49,591 nt of DNA from an uncultured bacterium. Lineage in GTDB: Bacteria; Bacillota; Clostridia; Oscillospirales; Oscillospiraceae. Position numbers and translations under genes: made by a program. The stretch is taken from assembly GCA_946548895.1 (NCBI GenBank), contig CAMNQF010000028.1:1-49591 (forward strand), read 5' to 3'. The notes under the pieces are model-generated. The model was not told where the DNA came from. It worked only from the letters and a program-made list of their open reading frames with translations, and did no database searches. Position 1 is the stretch's first letter, and the number at the start of each line of letters is the position of its first letter. This document shows positions 9,385-43,264 of this stretch, in pieces.

Positions 9385-10725
9385 ATGTTACTTATCGGCA
9401 ACGGCAGGCTGATTACCCGGAGCGCGGTTAACCCCTACCTGGAGAACGGCGCGGTGGTTCTGGACGGCGATACCATCCGGGAGACCGGGAACCTGGAGGC
9501 CATGCGGGCCAAGTATCCGGGCGCGGAGTTCGTCGACGCCCGGGGCGGGGTCATCATGCCCGGCCTCATCAACGTGCACACCCACATCTACTCCGGCCTG
9601 GCCCGGGGCCTGGCCATCGACGGCTACAACCCGACCAATTTCTTTGAGGTGTTGGACGGCCAGTGGTGGAATATCGACCGGCACCTCACTTTGGACGGCA
9701 CGAGGGCCTGCGCCTACGCCACCGTGCTGGACTGCATTCGGGACGGCGTCACCACCATTTTCGACCACCACGCCTCCTTCGGCGAGATTCCCGGCTCCCT
9801 GTTCGCCATCAAGGACGTGTGCCAGGAGCTGGGTATGCGGGCCTGTCTGTGCTACGAGGTATCCGAGCGGGACGGGGCGGAGAAGTGCGCCCAGTCCATC
9901 CGGGAGAACGCCGAGTTCGCCCGCTGGGCCAAAAGCGAGAACAGCGATATGATCAAGGCCATGTTCGGCGGCCACGCCCTGTTCACCATCTCGGACAAGA
10001 CCTTTGAGGAGATGGTGAAGGCCAACGACGGGCTCACCGGCTTCCACATCCATGTGGCCGAGGGCATGAACGATGTGTACGACTCCCTGAAAAATTACGG
10101 CTGCCGCCCCGTCAACCGCCTGCTGTACAACGGGATTCTGGGGGAAAAGACCATGCTGGGCCACTGCATCCACGTCTCCCCGGCGGAGATGGACATCATC
10201 AAGGAGACCAACACCATGGTGTGCCACAACCCGGAGTCCAACATGGGCAACGCGGTGGGCTGCTCCCCGGTGCTGAAGCTGTTTGAGAAGGGCGTCCTCA
10301 TCGGCCTGGGCACCGACGCCTACACCCACGATATGCTGGAGTCTTTGAAGGTCCTGCTGCCCATGCAGCGCCACAACGCCTGCGACCCCAACGTGGGCTG
10401 GTGCGAGGCCATGGGGATGCTGTTCCGCAACAACCCCGCCATCTGCGCCCGGTATTTCCAGAAGCCCCTGGGGGTGCTGGAGCCCGGCGCGGCGGCGGAC
10501 GTGATCGTCATGGACTACAAGCCCTTCACCCCCTTCGGGGCGGACAACATCGACGGCCATATGCTCTTCGGCATGATGGGTAAGAACTGCCGCACCACCG
10601 TCATCAACGGCAAGGTGGTGTACAAGGACCGGGAGTTCGTGGGCATCGACGAGGACAGGATCAACGCCTGGACCCTGGAGCAGTCCAAAAAGCTGTGGGG
10701 CCAGCTGAACCACAGGACATATTAA
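9385..10725 (+). CDS. ssnA: SsnA-type amidohydrolase of selenium/purine metabolism
   Basis: A 446-residue metal-dependent amidohydrolase of the deaminase/chlorohydrolase group. Metal ligands are visible: His65 and His67 in NVHTHIYSG, a later His in FHIHVAEGMND, GHCIHVSP, and the Asp in GLGTDAYTHD. The order and the next genes (ygfK, then a Mo hydroxylase) identify it as SsnA, a marker of the Se-dependent molybdenum hydroxylase and anaerobic purine-degradation clusters. The exact substrate has not been settled; deamination or hydrolysis of a purine-derived intermediate is inferred. The ATG at 9385 follows GGGAGGACAGG; upstream in-frame sequence overlaps the divergent regulator's promoter. Confidence 0.9.
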   Translation: MLLIGNGRLITRSAVNPYLENGAVVLDGDTIRETGNLEAMRAKYPGAEFVDARGGVIMPGLINVHTHIYSGLARGLAIDGYNPTNFFEVLDGQWWNIDRHLTLDGTRACAYATVLDCIRDGVTTIFDHHASFGEIPGSLFAIKDVCQELGMRACLCYEVSERDGAEKCAQSIRENAEFARWAKSENSDMIKAMFGGHALFTISDKTFEEMVKANDGLTGFHIHVAEGMNDVYDSLKNYGCRPVNRLLYNGILGEKTMLGHCIHVSPAEMDIIKETNTMVCHNPESNMGNAVGCSPVLKLFEKGVLIGLGTDAYTHDMLESLKVLLPMQRHNACDPNVGWCEAMGMLFRNNPAICARYFQKPLGVLEPGAAADVIVMDYKPFTPFGADNIDGHMLFGMMGKNCRTTVINGKVVYKDREFVGIDEDRINAWTLEQSKKLWGQLNHRTY

Positions 10726-33992: not shown

Positions 33993-34562
33993 TTGGACCA
34001 GCGGTTTTATGACGCGGTGCTGGCCTCGCCGGTGATCGCGGCGGTGAAGGATATGGAGCAGCTGGAGGACTGCCTGACCCTGGACAACATCCAGGTGGTG
34101 TTCCTGCTGTTCGGGGATCTGTGCACCATCGCGGAGGTGGCGGCCCGGGCCAAGGACGCGGGCAAAATCGTGCTGGTCCATGTGGACCTGATCGCGGGGC
34201 TGTCCTCCAGCCAGGAGATCGCCGTGGACTTCCTGCGGCGGAACACCCGGGTGGACGGCATCATCACCACCAAGCCCAACTTCATCCGCCGGGCCCGGGA
34301 GCTGAAGCTGTTCACCGTCATGCGCCTGTTTGTCATCGACTCCATGGCGCTGGCGGGCATCAGCAAGCTGGAGAGCGTCAAGCCGGACTTCATCGAGGTG
34401 CTGCCCGGGGTCATGCCCAAGACCATCCGAAAAATCGCCCAGACTACCCGCATCCCCCTGCTGGCCGGGGGGCTCATCGCGGACAAGGAGGACGTGGTGG
34501 CGGCGCTGTCCGCCGGGGCCATGGCGGTGTCGGCCACCAGCCGGGAGGTCTGGCGGATGTAG
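33993..34562 (+). CDS. glpP: Glycerol-3-phosphate-responsive antiterminator GlpP
   Basis: A 189-residue barrel-fold regulator that, when bound to glycerol-3-phosphate, allows transcription through leader terminators of glp genes. HVDLIAGLSSSQEIAVDFL, DGIITTKPNFIRRA, KPDFIEVLPGVMP and PLLAGGLIADKEDV are family hallmarks. The start is TTG at 33993 with GGAGG 7 bases before. It lies between dhaKLM and the glpK/glpF genes, whose leaders are its likely targets. Confidence 0.93.
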   Translation: MDQRFYDAVLASPVIAAVKDMEQLEDCLTLDNIQVVFLLFGDLCTIAEVAARAKDAGKIVLVHVDLIAGLSSSQEIAVDFLRRNTRVDGIITTKPNFIRRARELKLFTVMRLFVIDSMALAGISKLESVKPDFIEVLPGVMPKTIRKIAQTTRIPLLAGGLIADKEDVVAALSAGAMAVSATSREVWRM

Positions 34563-34577
34563 CGGGCCCCTCAAAAA

Positions 34578-34660
34578 CGGAAAAGCCGCCCAGGCGCGGG
34601 ACGGACCCCCGCCCTCCCTCGGGAGGGGCGGGGCCTTTCCATGCCTGTACGGCTTTTCGG
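34578..34660. terminator. Nested terminator between glpP and the small peptide gene
   Basis: The inner stem CCCCGCCCTCCC/GGGAGGGGCGGGG (34607-34633) lies within an outer CGGAAAAGCCG/CGGCTTTTCGG pair (34578-34588, 34650-34660). It serves two convergent genes. Confidence 0.7.
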
Positions 34661-34676
34661 AGACGGGCGCAAGGGC

Positions 34677-34889
34677 TCACTTGCCTTCGCAGTTCATGTC
34701 GTCCAGGCTGCAGCTGGTGTCCCCGTCCTCAGTGACGGCGTTCATGTCGGTGATGGAGTAGCTCTGCTCCTCCTGGCCCTCCAGGCAGTTCATATCGTTC
34801 AGCGCGCAGCTGCGGTCGTCGTCGCTGGAGATGCCGTTCATGTTGGTGATGCCCAGGCTGCTCTTGATTTTCGGTTCCTTCTGATCCAT
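34677..34889 (-). CDS. Small acidic peptide made of four 16-residue repeats, function unknown
   Basis: A 70-residue peptide not recognised as any family. After a 10-residue head (MDQKEPKIKS) it consists of four tandem units starting at residues 11, 27, 43 and 59. Each has the form S-x-x-(I/L)-x-(N/D)-M-N followed by an acidic tail; Met-Asn recurs at 17-18, 33-34, 49-50 and 65-66. Units 2 and 4 carry Cys pairs spaced C-x6-C (28/35, 60/67), units 1 and 3 do not, so the true unit may be a 32-residue pair duplicated. It has its own promoter and a strong AAGGAGG site 9 bases before the ATG, supporting real expression. No modification enzyme or exporter is adjacent. It might be a multi-core peptide precursor, a metal-binding peptide or a redox peptide; none is proven. 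Confidence 0.75.
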   Translation of the reverse strand: MDQKEPKIKSSLGITNMNGISSDDDRSCALNDMNCLEGQEEQSYSITDMNAVTEDGDTSCSLDDMNCEGK

Positions 34890-34999
34890 GGTTTGGTTCC
34901 TCCTTACTCATGGTGTTGGCACGGCGAAAAGGCCGGCGGGGCCGGAGCCGCTCCGCCGGGTGATGCGTCAGCAATGCGAACGGATTGCTTTCATCATAA

Positions 35000-35028
35000 A
35001 GTATAGCCCAACCTGCCCAAAAATACAA
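35000..35028 (-). promoter_or_regulatory. Promoter of the small repeat peptide
   Basis: Read leftward: TTGTAT (35023-35028), 17-base spacer, TATACT (35000-35005), giving a leader of about 100 bases with a GC-rich hairpin near 34931-34960. Confidence 0.6.
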
Positions 35029-35162
35029 GGGCGGAAGGTATTGTTTTTGACAAATCTTCCATTTTGTTGGACGCGGGCCGGGGTCGCGGCCGCTTTTTTG
35101 TGAAAAATGTCCGCCAGGGGGAAAAACTTTGGAAGCGCAGGGGGCTTTTTCGCCTGGGGCGG

Positions 35163-35191
35163 TTGAAAAATTCACAAAATTCTGGTATCGT
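35163..35191 (+). promoter_or_regulatory. Promoter of the peroxiredoxin operon
   Basis: TTGAAA (35163-35168), 17-base spacer, TATCGT (35186-35191). The spacer carries TTCACAAAA, and an inverted TTTTGTGAA half-site lies about 70 bases upstream (near 35096), recalling the palindromes at 7058 and 27383. The 371-base gap 34890-35260 otherwise holds only the divergent peptide promoter and GC hairpins. Confidence 0.55.
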
Positions 35192-35260
35192 AAGATAGAA
35201 AAGGCCGTCCGCGGGCCTGGAGCAAAAATGTTACACCGAAGATAATAGGAGGAATGTGTT

Positions 35261-35827
35261 ATGGCGCATATGATTGGCAAGGAGCTGGAACCCTTCTCCG
35301 TCATGGGCTACCACCAGGGAGAGTTCAAGCCCTTCACCGAAAAGGACCTGCTGGGCCACTGGTCCGTGCTGTTTTTCTACCCCGCCGACTTCACCTTCGT
35401 CTGCCCCACCGAGCTGAAAGACCTGGCCGAGCAGTACGCCGGCTTCCAGGCGGAGGGGTGCGAGGTCTACTCCGTCAGCGAGGACACCCATTTTGTCCAC
35501 AAGGCCTGGGCGGACGCCTCCGACACCATTCAGGCCATCAGCTACCCCATGCTGGGCGACCCCGCCGGGGTGCTGGCCCGGCAGTTCGGCGTGCTGGTGG
35601 AGCAGGAGGGCCAGGCCCTGCGGGCCACCTTCCTGCTGAACCCGGAGGGGAAGATTGTGCTGTACGAGATCCATGACATGGGCATCGGCCGCAACGCCGA
35701 AGAGCTGCTGCGCAAGCTCCAGGCCGCCAAGTTCGTCCACGAGCACGGCGACCAGGTATGCCCCGCCCACTGGCATCCCGGCGAGGAGACGCTGACCCCC
35801 AGCCTGGATCTGGTGGGGCTGCTGTAA
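35261..35827 (+). CDS. ahpC: Alkyl hydroperoxide reductase AhpC-type peroxiredoxin
   Basis: A 188-residue typical 2-Cys peroxiredoxin that reduces peroxides. The peroxidatic Cys48 is in DFTFVCPTEL and the resolving Cys167 in DQVCPAHW. HKAWADASDTI and GEDTLTP-type tail motifs (here GEETLTPSLDLVG) fit AhpC. GGAGG lies 9 bases before the ATG. It is followed after 13 bases by an AhpF N-terminal-domain protein, its likely electron donor. It is the oxygen-defence insert within the glycerol region. Confidence 0.95.
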   Translation: MAHMIGKELEPFSVMGYHQGEFKPFTEKDLLGHWSVLFFYPADFTFVCPTELKDLAEQYAGFQAEGCEVYSVSEDTHFVHKAWADASDTIQAISYPMLGDPAGVLARQFGVLVEQEGQALRATFLLNPEGKIVLYEIHDMGIGRNAEELLRKLQAAKFVHEHGDQVCPAHWHPGEETLTPSLDLVGLL

Positions 35828-35840
35828 GGAGGAGTCTGTC

Positions 35841-36506
35841 ATGCCGCTCCAACCCGAACATTATCCCGCGAAAAGCCCTCTCATTGCCGGGGAGCTGGAG
35901 GGCCAGCTGAACCAGCTCTTATCCAAGCTGTCCGCCCCCGTCACCCTGGTGTGCCTGCTGGACGGGGGGGAGAAGAGCGCCGAAATGGCCGCCTTTGTCA
36001 ACCACGTCGCGGGGCTGTCCCCCCTGCTTTCCTGCAAGTTCCTCTCCCCCGGCGAGGACCCGGCGGTGGACGCGGCCTTGGACGCCTCCCTGCTGCCCGC
36101 CACCGGCGTCTATACAGAGGCCGGGTTTGCCCGCATGGTGTTCCACGGCATCCCCGGCGGCAAGGAGATCACCGGCTTCGCCGGAGCCCTGCTCAACGCC
36201 GGGAACGCCGCCAAGCCCCTGGACAAGCCTACCCTTAAGGACATCGGCAAAATCAAAAAGCCGGTGGACATCCGGGTGTGCGTGTCCCTGGCCTGCCACC
36301 ACTGCGCCCAGCTGGTGATGAGCGCCCAGCGGGTGGCCTGGGAGAACCCCCTGGTCACGGCCCACATGATTGACGCCAACCTGTACCCCGCCCTGGTGAA
36401 GCAGTACCAGATCCAGCGGGTGCCGCTGACGGTGCTCAACGGGACGCAGGCCGTTCCCGGCGGCAAGACCATGGCGGAGCTGACTACTCTGCTGGCCAGG
36501 CTCTGA
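35841..36506 (+). CDS. AhpF N-terminal-domain-like tandem thioredoxin-fold protein
   Basis: A 221-residue protein equivalent to the first 200 residues of AhpF: two thioredoxin folds, of which only the second keeps a redox pair, Cys152 and Cys155 in SLACHHCAQLVM. KPLDKPTLKDIGKIKKPVDI is the typical joining stretch in AhpF. The FAD/NADH reductase half is missing, so a separate thioredoxin-reductase-like protein must reduce it. It is co-transcribed with ahpC (GGAGG before the ATG at 35841) and would hand electrons to it. A T-rich terminator follows. Confidence 0.88.
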   Translation: MPLQPEHYPAKSPLIAGELEGQLNQLLSKLSAPVTLVCLLDGGEKSAEMAAFVNHVAGLSPLLSCKFLSPGEDPAVDAALDASLLPATGVYTEAGFARMVFHGIPGGKEITGFAGALLNAGNAAKPLDKPTLKDIGKIKKPVDIRVCVSLACHHCAQLVMSAQRVAWENPLVTAHMIDANLYPALVKQYQIQRVPLTVLNGTQAVPGGKTMAELTTLLARL

Positions 36507-36530
36507 TTCCGAAAAAGGACGGCAAATTGG

Positions 36531-36571
36531 CTCCGCTGACAAGATTTTATGTCCTGCCAGCGGAGTTTTTT
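36531..36571 (+). terminator. Terminator of the peroxiredoxin operon
   Basis: CTCCGCTG (36531-36538) pairs with CAGCGGAG (36558-36565), then TTTTTT. A 19-base loop contains a further ACA/TGT pair. Confidence 0.85.
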
Positions 36572-36654
36572 GTGTATTTCCGCAAAACGAGGAGTGCAAT
36601 TTTGTGGGAATTGTCGAAATTTACATATGATTGCCAGAAATTGTTGCTTTTCTT

Positions 36655-36684
36655 TTGCATATATGCTAAATTAAGGAATATAAA
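36655..36684 (+). promoter_or_regulatory. Promoter of the candidate RNA at 36690
   Basis: TTGCAT (36655-36660), 18-base spacer, TATAAA (36679-36684). TGTCGAA, a Spo0A-box-like heptamer, lies at 36612-36618. Confidence 0.5.
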
Positions 36685-36689
36685 TGGAC

Positions 36690-36800
36690 TGGATGGACAT
36701 GGCTCCCACGGGAGCAACTGAATACCATGAACCTTTGAGACGAGCGCTGCAGGGTCTGGACAGTGGGAAACCGCTGGCTTTGGTCCTGCACTCTTTTTTT
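36690..36800 (+). ncRNA. Candidate structured RNA or attenuator ending in an intrinsic terminator
   Basis: About 110 bases between a promoter and a run of seven T. The 5' domain has CATGG...CCATG (36698-36702, 36725-36729) enclosing GCTCC-CACG-GGAGC and an unpaired CAACTGAATA. The 3' domain is GCAGGGTC...GGTCCTGC (36749-36756, 36782-36789) enclosing CAGTGG-GAAA-CCGCTG with a GNRA-type loop, then ACTCTTTTTTT. The TetR gene begins 65 bases on, so this could be its attenuating leader or a free-standing small RNA. I could not match it to a known riboswitch, T-box or 6S pattern. The region 36507-36864 holds no convincing protein gene. Confidence 0.5.
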
Positions 36801-36864
36801 ACTCAGAGGGGCGGACGCCCCGCCGGACCCATCGCGGCCGCGGGAGTAGGGGGAATTTATCATA

Positions 36865-37422
36865 ATGTGCTGTAACACGAAGCAGAAGATCGCCCGGGCG
36901 CTGCGCCAGCTGATGAGCGAACGCCCCCTGAGCAAAATCACCGTGCAGGACCTGATGGAGCGGGCCCAGATGAAGCGGCAGAGCTTTTACTACCACTTCC
37001 AGGATATCTATGATGTGCTGGGCTGGATGTGCGAGCAGCAGCTGGGCGCTCCCCTCCGGGAGGACCCGGAGATGGACTTCGAGGCGTGGTGCCTGCGGCT
37101 GGTGGAGCTGATGGAGGAGGACCGGGCGTTCTACCGCCGGGTGTTCCTGGCGGGCAGCCCAGGGATTGTGCGGGACTTCTGCGAGGGGCTGGTGCGGCCC
37201 CGGATGGCCCGGCTGCTGTTCCTGGTGGACGACCCGCGGCAGCTGCCCAGGGAGCAGGCTTTTGTGGCCGACTTCTGTACCAGGGCCATTACCAGCTATT
37301 TCATTGAGCTGTGCGCCTCCCGGAAAGAGCTGGACTGGGCGGAGGTCCGCCTGTGCCTCCACAGCCTGTTGAGCGTGGTCCGCCCGGCGGAGGAACTGTG
37401 CCTGCGGGTTCAGGCGGGCTGA
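36865..37422 (+). CDS. TetR-family regulator resembling DhaS
   Basis: A 185-residue regulator. Residues 5-55 are the DNA-binding domain (KQKIARALRQLMSERPLSK, then ITVQDLMERAQMKRQSFYYH), with the FYYHF core of the family; the C-terminal 120 residues form the ligand domain. The N-terminal pattern is like the dihydroxyacetone kinase regulators (DhaS group). Lying between dhaKLM/glpP and glpK, it probably controls one or both. The ATG at 36865 is preceded by a modest AGGGGGAA site. Possible operators are the repeats at 33894-33926 and the palindromes at 37443-37496. Confidence 0.85.
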   Translation: MCCNTKQKIARALRQLMSERPLSKITVQDLMERAQMKRQSFYYHFQDIYDVLGWMCEQQLGAPLREDPEMDFEAWCLRLVELMEEDRAFYRRVFLAGSPGIVRDFCEGLVRPRMARLLFLVDDPRQLPREQAFVADFCTRAITSYFIELCASRKELDWAEVRLCLHSLLSVVRPAEELCLRVQAG

Positions 37423-37442
37423 ACGCTTGACAGCGGTGGACA

Positions 37443-39163
<1,721 letters not shown>

Positions 39164-39275
39164 AGCCCCGCCCGCGGCTTGCGCGCCGCGCAGTTCGGTT
39201 TTCCGCCATCTGTCCCCTGGGGCGGGGCCCGCTGCCCCGCCCCGGGATAGAGTAAAATAGAGGAGGGTTTTGTCA

Positions 39276-39998
39276 ATGTTAGTGAAGTTTTTGGCTGAGT
39301 TCGTGGGCACGATGCTGCTCATCCTGCTGGGCGACGGCGTGGTGGCCAACGTCACCCTGAACAAGTCCGGCATGAAGGGCGCCGGCTCCATCCAGATCAC
39401 CCTGGCCTGGGGCCTTGCCGTTATGATCCCCGCGTTTATCTTCGGCGCGGCCTCCGGCGCGCACTTCAACCCCGCCCTGACCATCGCCCTGGCGGTGGAC
39501 GGCAGCCTGCCCTGGGCTGAGGTTCCCATCTACATCATCGGCCAGTTCGCCGGCGCCATCCTGGGCGCGTGCATCGTCTACCTGATGTTCAAGGATCAGT
39601 TTGACGCCACCGACGACCCCGGCACCAAGCTGGGCGTGTTCTCCACCGGCCCCTCTGTCCCCAATATGCCCCTGAACATCTTCTGCGAGGCCGTGGCTAC
39701 CTTCGTGCTGGTCTTCGCCATCAAGGGCATCCCCGGCACTGTGGCCGGCGGCGTGAGCAACCTGTTCGTGTTCGGCATCATCGTGTCCATCGGTATGTCT
39801 CTGGGCGGCCTGACCGGCTATGCCCTGAACCCCGCCCGTGACCTGGGCCCCCGTATCGCCCACTCCTTCCTGCCCATCAAGGGTAAGGGCGACTCCAACT
39901 GGGGCTATGCCATCGTTCCCCTGTTTGGCCCGATCATCGGCGCCGTTGTGGCCGTCCTGGTCTACATGGGTCTGGGCGCGGCCGGCGTGTGGGCCTGA
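39276..39998 (+). CDS. glpF: Glycerol uptake facilitator (aquaglyceroporin)
   Basis: A 240-residue channel with six membrane spans and two half-helices carrying NPA boxes: HFNPALT and LNPARDLGPR. The Asp after NPAR is the mark of glycerol-conducting rather than water-only channels. AGGAGG lies 9 bases before the ATG at 39276; a TTG two codons earlier is too close to it. Downstream of glpK by 112 bases, with a GC hairpin in between, and followed by the glycerol-3-phosphate oxidation genes. Confidence 0.96.
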   Translation: MLVKFLAEFVGTMLLILLGDGVVANVTLNKSGMKGAGSIQITLAWGLAVMIPAFIFGAASGAHFNPALTIALAVDGSLPWAEVPIYIIGQFAGAILGACIVYLMFKDQFDATDDPGTKLGVFSTGPSVPNMPLNIFCEAVATFVLVFAIKGIPGTVAGGVSNLFVFGIIVSIGMSLGGLTGYALNPARDLGPRIAHSFLPIKGKGDSNWGYAIVPLFGPIIGAVVAVLVYMGLGAAGVWA

Positions 39999-40086
39999 TC
40001 CCCACAGCCTGACGAGGTAATCGCATTGAAAGGCCTGCGGGCCAAATAACCCCCTGGTCTCTCATGCGGAGTGAATGAGAAGCTGT

Positions 40087-40142
40087 GAGCCGGGCAGCCC
40101 TGACCCCTCTGACAGGAGGGGCCGGACCGGGCTGCCCGGCTC
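40087..40142 (+). promoter_or_regulatory. Large hairpin between glpF and the GlpA-like gene
   Basis: A perfect 14-bp stem, GAGCCGGGCAGCCC with GGGCTGCCCGGCTC (40087-40100, 40129-40142), encloses a second hairpin CCCCTC/GAGGGG. No T-run follows. It could be an mRNA processing or attenuation point that lowers expression of the downstream genes relative to glpKF, or a GlpP target. Confidence 0.5.
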
Positions 40143-40179
40143 AATCTGTCAAATAACGGTAAAAAGGAGTGAACCTGTT

Positions 40180-41610
40180 ATGGTTGATATCGTCATCATC
40201 GGCGCGGGCGTGTCCGGCTGCGCCATCGCCCGGGAGCTGTCCCGGTACAAGGCGGACGTGCTGGTGCTGGAGCGGGAGGAGGATGTGTGCTGCGGCACCA
40301 CCAAGGCCAACAGCGCCATCGTCCACGCGGGCTACGACGCCGCGAACGGGTCCCTCATGGCCAAGCTGAACGTGGCGGGCAGCCTGCTCATGCCCGAGCT
40401 GGCCCGGGAGCTGGACTTCGCCTATGAGCAGAACGGCTCCCTGGTGGTCATGATGAGCGAGGAGGACCGCCCCGCCCTGAACAAGCTGTACGCCAACGGC
40501 GTGGCCAACGGGGTGGAGGGCCTGCGCATTGTGGAGCGGGACGAGCTGGTGGCCATGGAGCCCAACATCAGCGACGAGGCCGTGGCCGCCCTGTACGCCC
40601 CCACCGGCGGCATCGTGTGCCCCTTCGGGCTCACCTTCGCCCTGGCGGAGAACGCCGCCCACAACGGGGTCAAGTTCCAGTTTGACAGCGAAGTGACCAA
40701 TATCACCCAGATTGACGGCGGCTGGAAGGTGTCCACCGTCAAGGGCGACGTGGAGGCCAAAGTGGTGGTCAACGCCGCCGGGCTGTATGCCGACAAGCTC
40801 CACAACATGGTGGCCGGCGACAATATGACCATCATCCCCCGCCGGGGCGACTACTTCCTGCTGGACCACACCACCCAGGGCTTTGTGCGCAACACCATCT
40901 TCCAGCTCCCCGGCAAGTACGGCAAGGGCGTGCTGGTGGCCCCCACCGTCCACGGCAACACCATCGTGGGCCCCACCGCCATCGACATTGAGGATAAGGA
41001 GGGCACCAATACCACCCAGGCCGGCCTGGACGACGTGCGGGCCAAGTGCGGCATGGCGGTGAAGAACGTGCCCCTGCGCCAGACCATCACCAGCTTCGCG
41101 GGGCTCCGGGCCCATGAGGCCCGCCACGAGTTCTTCATCGGCGAGATCAAACCCGGCTTCGTGGATTGCGCCGCCATCGAATCCCCCGGCCTGTCCAGCT
41201 CCCCCGCCATCGGCCGCATGGTGGCCGGCATCGTGAAGAATATCCTGGGCCTGGAGGTGGACCTGTCCTTCGACCCGCGCCGGAAGGGCATCCTGGACCC
41301 CAAGGCCCTGGACAATGAGGCCCACGCCGCCCTCATCAAGGAGAATCCCGCCTACGGCACCGTCATCTGCCGCTGCGAGACCGTCACCGAGGGCGAGATC
41401 ATCGACGCCATCCGCCGCACTCCCGGCGCCCGGAGCCTGGACGGCGTGAAGCGCAGGGTCCGGGCCGGCATGGGCCGGTGCCAGGGCGGCTTCTGCTCCC
41501 CCAGGGTGATGGAGATCCTGGCCCGGGAGCTGGGCGTGGACCAGAGCGCCATCACCAAGGCCGGCGCGGGATCCGAGCTGATCGTGGGCGTCAACAAGGA
41601 CGCCATCTGA
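40180..41610 (+). CDS. Glycerol-3-phosphate dehydrogenase-type FAD protein with BFD-like [2Fe-2S] tail
   Basis: A 476-residue flavoprotein. The N-terminal Rossmann motif is DIVIIGAGVSGCAIARELSR; SAIVHAGYDA and FAGLRAHEARHEF match GlpA/GlpO-like dehydrogenases. The C-terminal domain has Cys397, 399, 434 and 439 (CRCETVTEGEI, GMGRCQGGFC), a BFD-type [2Fe-2S] site as in anaerobic GlpA. With glpK and glpF upstream it most likely oxidises glycerol-3-phosphate to DHAP. The ATG at 40180 follows AAAAAGGAGTGAACCTGTT. The next two genes probably encode its electron-accepting partners. Confidence 0.9.
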   Translation: MVDIVIIGAGVSGCAIARELSRYKADVLVLEREEDVCCGTTKANSAIVHAGYDAANGSLMAKLNVAGSLLMPELARELDFAYEQNGSLVVMMSEEDRPALNKLYANGVANGVEGLRIVERDELVAMEPNISDEAVAALYAPTGGIVCPFGLTFALAENAAHNGVKFQFDSEVTNITQIDGGWKVSTVKGDVEAKVVVNAAGLYADKLHNMVAGDNMTIIPRRGDYFLLDHTTQGFVRNTIFQLPGKYGKGVLVAPTVHGNTIVGPTAIDIEDKEGTNTTQAGLDDVRAKCGMAVKNVPLRQTITSFAGLRAHEARHEFFIGEIKPGFVDCAAIESPGLSSSPAIGRMVAGIVKNILGLEVDLSFDPRRKGILDPKALDNEAHAALIKENPAYGTVICRCETVTEGEIIDAIRRTPGARSLDGVKRRVRAGMGRCQGGFCSPRVMEILARELGVDQSAITKAGAGSELIVGVNKDAI

Positions 41611-41625
41611 AGGAGGGGCTGAACC

Positions 41626-42891
41626 ATGAGAGAATATGAACTTGTTATCATCGGCGGCGGCCCTGCCGGGCTGGCCGCAGCGGTTGCCGCCCACGAGGCG
41701 GGCCTGCGGGACATCCTGATTCTGGAGCGGGACAACGAGCTGGGCGGCATCCTGAACCAGTGCATCCACAACGGCTTCGGCCTGCACACCTTCAAGGAGG
41801 AGCTCACCGGCCCCGAGTACGCTGGCCGGTTCATCCAGCAGGTGAAGGAGCTGGGCATCCCCTATAAGCTGAACACCATGGTGCTGGACCTGGCGGCGGA
41901 CAAGACCGTCACCGCCATGAACCGGGAGGACGGGCTGTTTCAGCTTCATCCCAAGGCGGTCATCTTGGCCATGGGCTGCCGGGAGCGGCCCCGGGGCGCG
42001 CTGAACATCCCCGGCTACCGCCCCGCCGGCATCTTCACCGCCGGCACCGCCCAGCGGCTGGTGAACATGGAGGGCTATATGCCCGGCCGCAAGGTGGTCA
42101 TCCTGGGCTCCGGCGACATCGGCCTCATCATGGCCCGCCGCATGACCCTGGAGGGCGCCAAGGTCCAGGTGGTGGCGGAGCTGATGCCCTACTCCGGCGG
42201 CCTGAAGCGGAACATCGTCCAGTGCCTGGACGACTACGGCATCCCCCTGAAATTGAGCCACACCGTAGTGGATATTGAGGGCAAAAAGCGGGTCGAGGCC
42301 ATCACCATCGCCCAGGTGGACGAGAAAAACCGGCCCATCCCCGGCACCGAGGAGCGCTATGAGTGCGACACCCTGCTGCTGTCCTGCGGCCTGATCCCGG
42401 AGAACGAACTGAGCCGCTCCGCCGGGGTGGAGCTGAACCCGGTCACCAACGGGCCCACCGTCAACGAGAGCCTGGAGACCAGCGTTCCCGGTGTGTTCGC
42501 CGCGGGCAACGTGCTCCATGTCCACGACCTGGTGGACTACGTGTCCGAGGAGGCGGGGGCCGCCGGCCGCCACGCCGCCGACTATATCGCCGCGGGCTGC
42601 AAGGCCCAGGAGCATAAGGCCCTGCCCGTGAAATGCGAGAACGGCGTGCGCTACACCGTCCCTGTGGCCATCCGGCCCGACGCGGCGGGGGACACCGTCA
42701 CCCTTCGGTTCCGGGTGGGCAACGTGTATCAGAACAAAAAGGTGGCCGTCTACGCGGGGGACGCCTGTATCTTCAGCCGCAAGCGCCCGGTGCTGGCCCC
42801 CGGCGAGATGGAGACGGTCATCCTCAAGACCAGCCTGCTGAAGGACCACCCCGAGGCGGACGGCATTACCGTGACTCTGGAGGAGGCGTGA
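41626..42891 (+). CDS. NAD(P)/FAD-dependent oxidoreductase, partner of the GlpA-like protein
   Basis: A 421-residue two-dinucleotide-fold flavoprotein: ELVIIGGGPAGLAAAVAAHE for FAD and KVVILGSGDIGLIMARRM for NAD(P), with ERPRGALNIPGYRPAGIF and SVPGVFAAGNVLHVHDLVDY. Active-site disulfide Cys pairs of thioredoxin reductases are absent. It starts 16 bases after the GlpA-like gene and ends 5 bases before the DUF1667 gene, so the three likely form a complex moving electrons from glycerol-3-phosphate to NAD(P)+ or a quinone substitute. It would stand in for GlpB. Confidence 0.88.
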   Translation: MREYELVIIGGGPAGLAAAVAAHEAGLRDILILERDNELGGILNQCIHNGFGLHTFKEELTGPEYAGRFIQQVKELGIPYKLNTMVLDLAADKTVTAMNREDGLFQLHPKAVILAMGCRERPRGALNIPGYRPAGIFTAGTAQRLVNMEGYMPGRKVVILGSGDIGLIMARRMTLEGAKVQVVAELMPYSGGLKRNIVQCLDDYGIPLKLSHTVVDIEGKKRVEAITIAQVDEKNRPIPGTEERYECDTLLLSCGLIPENELSRSAGVELNPVTNGPTVNESLETSVPGVFAAGNVLHVHDLVDYVSEEAGAAGRHAADYIAAGCKAQEHKALPVKCENGVRYTVPVAIRPDAAGDTVTLRFRVGNVYQNKKVAVYAGDACIFSRKRPVLAPGEMETVILKTSLLKDHPEADGITVTLEEA

Positions 42892-42895
42892 GACG

Positions 42896-43264
42896 ATGGA
42901 AGAGAAAAATCTGATCTGCATTAACTGCCCGCTGGGCTGCCCGCTTACCGTCACCATGGAGGGCGGCGAGGTCAAGAAGGTGGAGGGCAACACCTGCCCC
43001 CGGGGGGAGGCCTACGCCAAAAAGGAGCTGACCAACCCCACCCGCATCGTCACCAGCACGGTGAAGGTGAAGGGCGGCAGGCTGGCCATGGCCTCCGTCA
43101 AGACCGCCAACGACATCCCCAAGGGAAAGATCTTCGACTGCGTGAAGGCCATCCAGAACATTGAGCTGGAGGCCCCCGTGACCATCGGCCAGGTGGTGCT
43201 GGCCGACGTGTGCGGCACCGGGGTGGACATCGTGGCCACCAAGAATGTGCCCGCCAAGGGTTAA
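42896..43264 (+). CDS. DUF1667 small Cys-containing protein
   Basis: A 122-residue protein with Cys8, Cys11, Cys15 and Cys34 (LICINCPLGCPLTV, NTCPRGEAYA), the typical DUF1667 layout resembling the N-terminal Fe-S segment of molybdopterin oxidoreductases. A metal or Fe-S cluster is likely. It is the last gene of the glycerol-3-phosphate oxidation set and probably a small electron-transfer subunit, by analogy to GlpC. A strong terminator follows. Confidence 0.88.
   Translation: MEEKNLICINCPLGCPLTVTMEGGEVKKVEGNTCPRGEAYAKKELTNPTRIVTSTVKVKGGRLAMASVKTANDIPKGKIFDCVKAIQNIELEAPVTIGQVVLADVCGTGVDIVATKNVPAKG

Follow-up and report, generated by a model that had tools for sequence, protein, structure and literature searches.

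The 49,591-nucleotide stretch of Oscillospiraceae DNA analysed here (the window) encodes a 70-residue peptide, MDQKEPKIKSSLGITNMNGISSDDDRSCALNDMNCLEGQEEQSYSITDMNAVTEDGDTSCSLDDMNCEGK, that belongs to an unnamed family of small proteins whose architecture is unusually strict. The family is made of four units in which a cysteine pair is present or absent as a whole, it is under purifying selection, and it is linked to the genes for the peroxiredoxin AhpC and for AhpFN, a stand-alone double-thioredoxin protein, at loci that hold no reductase module. The arrangement of the locus indicates a peroxiredoxin system without its reductase. It is quite possible, if somewhat short of probable, that the peptide serves this reductase-less AhpC-AhpFN system as a small cytoplasmic redox partner or switch.

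The peptide contains four M-N anchors at an exact period of 16 residues, an arrangement that did not arise in any of 300,000 composition shuffles of its sequence. The original prediction, made from the DNA letters alone, had placed the units at residues 11, 27, 43 and 59 and confined the C-x6-C motif to units 2 and 4, and the translation of the open reading frame (ORF) bears out both points. It had also described the repeats as exact, which holds for the period and not for the sequences: the units are non-identical, with nine-residue cores that share 16 to 22 of 27 bases, and unit 4 is truncated to 12 residues. Over the five peptides examined, the units share just 10-24 of 27 bases. The repeats are therefore old, and a recent repeat expansion is ruled out. 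The prediction was staked on relatives with conserved spacing, and relatives with the same spacing do occur in other genera, so the ORF is real and conserved, far beyond chance; these homologues, together with a dN/dS of about 0.2, rule out a chance ORF.

Table 1. Features of the peptide locus in the window.
Feature	Position	Strand	Evidence or remark
Four-repeat peptide gene (P0002)	34677-34889	-	ORF; relatives in 19 genomes; dN/dS ~0.2
Unit 4, residues 59-70, core SCSLDDMNC	34680-34715	-	C-x6-C; short tail
Unit 3, residues 43-58, core SYSITDMNA	34716-34763	-	Without Cys in the window; C-x6-C in L029, L030, L092 and L093
Unit 2, residues 27-42, core SCALNDMNC	34764-34811	-	C-x6-C
Unit 1, residues 11-26, core SLGITNMNG	34812-34859	-	Without Cys; N-x-N-G in 10/10 representatives
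Ribosome binding site AAGGAGG	34899-34905	-	AGGAGG in 11/11 aligned upstream regions
18-base dyad GCAATCCGTTCGCATTGC, candidate operator	34971-34988	-	Between promoter and start codon; identical copies in the genus
TTGTAT-17-TATACT, candidate promoter for the peptide	35000-35028	-	Alignment of 11 upstream regions
Divergent gene for the peroxiredoxin AhpC	35261-35827	+	NCBIfam TIGR03137, 277.2 bits, cut-off 272
AhpFN, stand-alone double-thioredoxin protein	35841-36506	+	CHHC; without reductase domain
Glycerol genes: GlpK, GlpF, GlpA-like (DAO + BFD), FAD protein, DUF1667	37505-43264	+	

The gene has the strong ribosome site that had been predicted for it (Table 1). A promoter of its own, likewise predicted, is plausible: in 11/11 aligned upstream regions the hexamer TATACT lies 17 bases after a TTG-type -35 hexamer, which is TTGTAT in 10 of them and TTGCCA in one, but a consensus promoter scan did not list TTGTAT-17-TATACT. 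The 18-base dyad downstream of this promoter looks like a candidate private operator. Identical copies were found in 9 of the 42 genomes of the genus, all nine of them peptide-bearing (9 of the 11 that carry the peptide), as a single copy per genome that always lies just upstream of the peptide gene. The dyad is missing from 31 other genomes of the genus when up to one mismatch is allowed. It folds as a hairpin in the leader of the window and not in the minimum-energy structures of two other leaders (L018 and L021). A role as an RNA element is unsupported on this inconsistency and for want of a credible Rfam family, since the three sub-threshold Rfam matches were all to animal families. Control by PerR found no support either: a scan for PerR-like boxes with up to four mismatches found none between the peptide gene and AhpC in the window and none upstream in L101 or L030; L100 has one four-mismatch site.

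Relatives of the peptide were found in 19 genomes in all. Eleven of the 42 genomes of the genus carry it, the source genome of the window included, but these form one clade and do not amount to 11 independent events. In a draw of 300 genomes from the family, a single-sequence query matched two, the source genome and G185, which carries two tandem, diverged copies (L004:5229-5733), the second without the Cys pair of unit 4. A search of the genome collection gave 14 loci, mostly in genomes already counted, and added G1060, G1061 and G1062; the family of G1060 (378 genomes) yielded relatives in G1343, G1264, G1212 and G1333. At an E-value of 0.001, profile searches matched only the source genome among 394 genomes of the order and among 391 of the class, so that the peptide family is, as far as these searches reach, rare and patchy. 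Weak profile matches with internal stops (G1081, G1432 and a second place in G1264) and a weak match in G333 (contig C24) are not part of the count of 19.

Sequence searches of Pfam, NCBIfam, PHROGs and the PDB gave no significant match to the peptide, with best E-values of 0.096 to 0.9 (PHROGs 0.096, Pfam DUF3079 0.11, PDB 0.43, none from NCBIfam). The peptide lies outside every known family in the libraries searched, and literature searches found no paper on a four-repeat peptide of this kind. An origin from a plasmid or phage was considered and rejected, as neither the window peptide, the profile nor the L095 peptide matched plasmids, phages or viral contigs.

The architecture was compared in ten representatives: the peptides of the window, L027, L029, L030, L092, L093, L094 and L095 and both copies from L004, of which L029 and L030 are near-identical; other members of the genus were omitted. 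All ten have four units, and all 30 intervals between units are 16 residues long. The core of the unit follows the consensus [ST]-[C or other]-[AGS]-[LI]-x-[DN]-M-N-[C, G or A] and is followed by a mostly acidic linker. Cysteines occupy unit positions 2 and 9 as a pair: both are present in 21 units, neither in 19, and there is no mixed case, although these units are related by descent, so that a Fisher value for the tally is no fair probability. The only cysteine outside the pairs in this set is one stray residue in L095, and the number of pairs per peptide varies from 0 to 3. Unit 1 never has cysteines and always has N-x-N-G. That neither the spacing nor the number of units varies would be in keeping with a defined fold or a binding register that is fixed.

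Within the genus, the dN/dS of the peptide is 0.215 (10 sequences, 61 codons), with 0.16 in the core and 0.29 in the linker, and a second estimate from 9 sequences is 0.194. The values for neighbouring genes are 0.184 for AhpC (6 sequences, excluding L018, L023 and L024, whose AhpC alignments are incomplete) and 0.227 and 0.138 for GlpP and DhaK (9 sequences each). The peptide is thus under purifying selection within the genus, comparable to that on AhpC.

An explanation that does not rely on thiol chemistry starts from the core itself. The peptide could be a scaffold, resembling CP12, in which a short binding motif, [LI]-x-[ND]-M-N-[G/A/C], occurs four times and assembles or regulates the enzymes of stress operons, while the Cys pair only staples the unit and can be replaced in that role by a Tyr/Leu/Phe...Gly/Ala pair. 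This would account for a motif core that is common to units with and without cysteines, even in a Cys-poor relative from an arsenic operon, and for the occurrence of one family in two different operon contexts. Composition also speaks for it, as a charge-hydropathy plot places 6 of the 7 peptides tested on its disordered side; however, the L095 peptide falls just on the folded side, and a spacing of 16 residues in every interval is not what flexible linkers would be expected to show and suggests a rigid register. This reading is unlikely.

The repeats had also prompted the suggestion of a multi-core precursor of a ribosomally made, modified peptide (RiPP) whose enzyme acts in trans, for example a radical-SAM enzyme that, like PapB, joins the Cys and Asp of CX3D motifs. 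The repeated units fit this suggestion, and CX3D is found in 19 of the 21 Cys units, with CX3N in the other two; PapB forms Cys-Asp thioethers at such CX3D sites (PMC9413430). However, the Asp or Asn is equally conserved in units that have no cysteine to be linked, and just 3-10 residues precede unit 1 in the ten representatives, which leaves no N-terminus of leader length. Multi-core RiPP precursors often vary in core number, but here the number is invariably four. Conserved radical-SAM neighbours were looked for in the 20 peptide-bearing loci by scanning ORFs of at least 180 codons for CX3CX2C. Neither of the two matches is credible, one being an antisense frame over the peptide and the other an in-frame extension upstream of another gene, and the neighbours that do recur across lineages are redox genes. 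A RiPP precursor is therefore highly improbable, and this part of the original prediction finds no support in the peptides and loci examined.

Those redox genes are AhpC and AhpFN. In the window the peptide gene is flanked by the convergent GlpP gene on its left and by AhpC on its right, which is divergent, as had been noted for the peroxiredoxin operon from the start. AhpC and AhpFN lie less than 8 kb from the peptide on the same contig in 15 of the 17 genomes with readable surroundings (10 genomes of the genus together with G1062, G1060, G1061, G1264 and G1212); in the remaining two of the 19, G309 and G1343, the contig stops next to the peptide gene, which leaves them uninformative. The exceptions are G185, a 70% complete genome with a 7.4 kb peptide contig in which AhpFN was not found, and G1333.

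The linked loci show three orientations. In the genus, L027 and L101 the peptide is divergent from AhpC-AhpFN. Across the genus, the genes keep the order GlpF-GlpK-DhaS-AhpFN-AhpC, divergent from peptide-GlpP-DhaKLM; L101 has the divergent AhpFN-AhpC pair as well, without glycerol genes. In L029 and L030 the genes run AhpC-AhpFN-peptide on one strand, with the peptide directly downstream. L100 likewise has all genes on one strand, in the order AhpC-AhpFN-GlpP-GlpK-GlpF-GlpA-like-FAD protein-DUF1667-peptide, so that the peptide is at the far end and the glycerol set known from the window separates it from AhpFN.

Genes for glycerol and glycerol-3-phosphate surround AhpC-AhpFN in two lineages (L100:367-8940 and positions 33993-43264 of the window). 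The placement of AhpC-AhpFN inside a glycerol gene set suggests that glycerol oxidation and peroxide are connected.

A LytTR response regulator and a GHKL histidine kinase follow directly after the peptide on the same strand in L030 (10286-12746), and likewise in L029. The peptide could accordingly be imagined as the signal of a two-component system of the quorum-sensing type. This is scarcely credible, however, as searches of other peptide loci with both genes as queries did not recover the pair, and no secretion leader is apparent by eye.

Against AhpF models, the AhpFN protein of the window aligns over the double-thioredoxin part alone, with scores below the model cut-offs. Stand-alone AhpFN is present in exactly the 11 of 42 genomes of the genus that carry the peptide, and its open frame spans 364 codons in G333 and 226-262 in the others. 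Two further genomes of the genus have only a fused AhpF (frames of 584 and 589 aa) and lack the peptide. Sequence of a TrxR-type reductase was found in none of the 15 peptide-bearing AhpFN loci, the 49.6 kb window among them, but in all 29 other AhpF-type loci from the class, either fused or adjacent. The comparison loci come from a search with the AhpFN of L030, which matched 38 of 391 class genomes; loci were available for 30, one of them the source genome, so that the comparison leaves out eight matches without loci (open frames of 509-516 codons) as well as the fused cases of the genus (L048 and L049). The flanks examined measure 2.8-3.6 kb around the comparison loci and 5.8-49.6 kb around the peptide loci, and since the latter are the longer, the contrast is not made by short flanks on their side. 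In what is apparently the same draw of 391 genomes, a profile search found the peptide in the source genome only.

Seven of the comparison loci (L069-L075) have a split AhpF, in which the adjacent gene was confirmed as AhpF-reductase/TrxR-like. A ferritin-like gene, assigned by eye, follows the split AhpF genes in L071-L074. The glycerol genes of the window and of L100 include a Pyr_redox_2 flavoprotein without CxxC, which could in principle serve as a reductase for AhpC-AhpFN.

If the peptide is a redox partner or switch, the pathway may be as follows. The AhpC-AhpFN system would have lost the flavoprotein reductase module of AhpF, and the C-x6-C units would cycle between the dithiol and an intra-unit disulfide, exchanging thiols with AhpFN, the presumed partner, through its CHHC thioredoxin site. 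From there, the peptide might stand in for the missing reductase and pass electrons on to AhpC, if that is the direction of flow, or it might dock a reductase that acts in trans. Alternatively, a rise in peroxide would lead AhpC-AhpFN to oxidise the peptide and thereby alter its binding to a putative target.

The linkage in 15 of 17 genomes and a Cys pair that is kept or lost as a unit strengthen the redox half of the earlier proposal of a metal or redox peptide. Against a redox role stand the conservation of N-x-N-G in a first unit that is Cys-free throughout, and the two peptide copies of G185, an incomplete genome in which AhpFN was not found. AhpC can moreover be served by thioredoxin alone, as described for Helicobacter pylori (PMC10880999), so that the loss of the AhpF reductase does not of itself demand a new partner. 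As a new donor is not strictly needed, the role of a switch or client is favoured over that of an obligatory shuttle.

The second exception to the linkage, G1333, carries its Cys-poor relative (9539-9736, with its own ribosome site) in an arsenic operon (L102:8070-12416), between an SBF-family transporter, Acr3-type by context, and ArsD; the operon also holds ArsR, ArsA and an LMWP-type ArsC. Recombinase-like ORFs were seen by eye near this operon. The relative has one stray Cys and no Cys pair, which means that the dithiol cannot be the only function of the family, and its place in this operon goes unexplained by a redox role. It is the strongest evidence for a function of the repeat beyond thiols, and because of it the scaffold reading keeps the probability given above.

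An arsenic operon might also bring to mind the metal half of the earlier proposal, in which two Cys and one Met per unit, together with the acidic linkers, would be the ligands of a soft ion, for instance Cu(I), Zn(II) or As(III). Each Cys unit does combine C-x4-M-x-C with acidic residues. But the member in the arsenic operon is the very one without Cys pairs, Leu or Ile replaces the Met in some units, the number of Cys pairs differs between peptides, and the other loci have no recurrent metal transporter or regulator as a neighbour. Metal or metalloid binding is thus improbable.

The boldest version of the redox proposal is that a mini-protein of four fixed 16-residue units takes the place of a flavoprotein reductase as an electron shuttle, or is the client of a disulfide relay from peroxide through AhpC and AhpFN to the peptide, and that a Cys-free version of the same repeat was adapted to an arsenic-resistance operon. 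In this full form the proposal is distinctly unlikely, but a peptide that replaces a reductase would, if true, be categorically new. Should the peptide feed or sense AhpC-AhpFN, gut anaerobes would have a wiring of AhpC that departs from the usual scheme of AhpF or thioredoxin reductase, and the electron source of a reductase-less AhpC would become directly testable with three short genes.

Several known systems invite comparison. CP12 is a redox-switched, disordered regulator of GAPDH and phosphoribulokinase that bridges enzymes when oxidised (PMC3906501). The peptide resembles it in being small, mostly acidic and on the disordered side by composition, and in its Cys pairs and tie to a thioredoxin-type protein. 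However, the sequences of the ten representatives show no AWD_VEE core (motif from PMC3906501), and the peptide has four exact 16-residue units and is linked to a peroxiredoxin where CP12 is tied to Calvin-cycle enzymes. No homology to CP12 is claimed. Precursors of the PapA or freyrasin type (ranthipeptides) share the repeated C-x3-D motifs (PMC9413430) and differ from the peptide in that the latter has no radical-SAM neighbour in 20 loci, no N-terminus of leader length, and an Asp that is conserved without Cys.

The closest comparisons are among peroxiredoxin systems. The split AhpF systems have a stand-alone AhpFN-type protein as well, but with the reductase gene adjacent in 7/7 cases, and a pattern scan saw no Cys-repeat peptide in their loci. 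With the classical AhpC/AhpF system (TIGR03137, TIGR03140, TIGR03143) the window shares a bona fide AhpC, which scores above the model cut-off (Table 1), and an AhpFN that matches the double-thioredoxin part of both the AhpF and the AhpF-homolog models and keeps the CHHC site. It differs in that the peptide locus lacks the flavoprotein reductase part and contains the gene for the four-repeat peptide. The system is best called a variant of the AhpC/AhpF kind.
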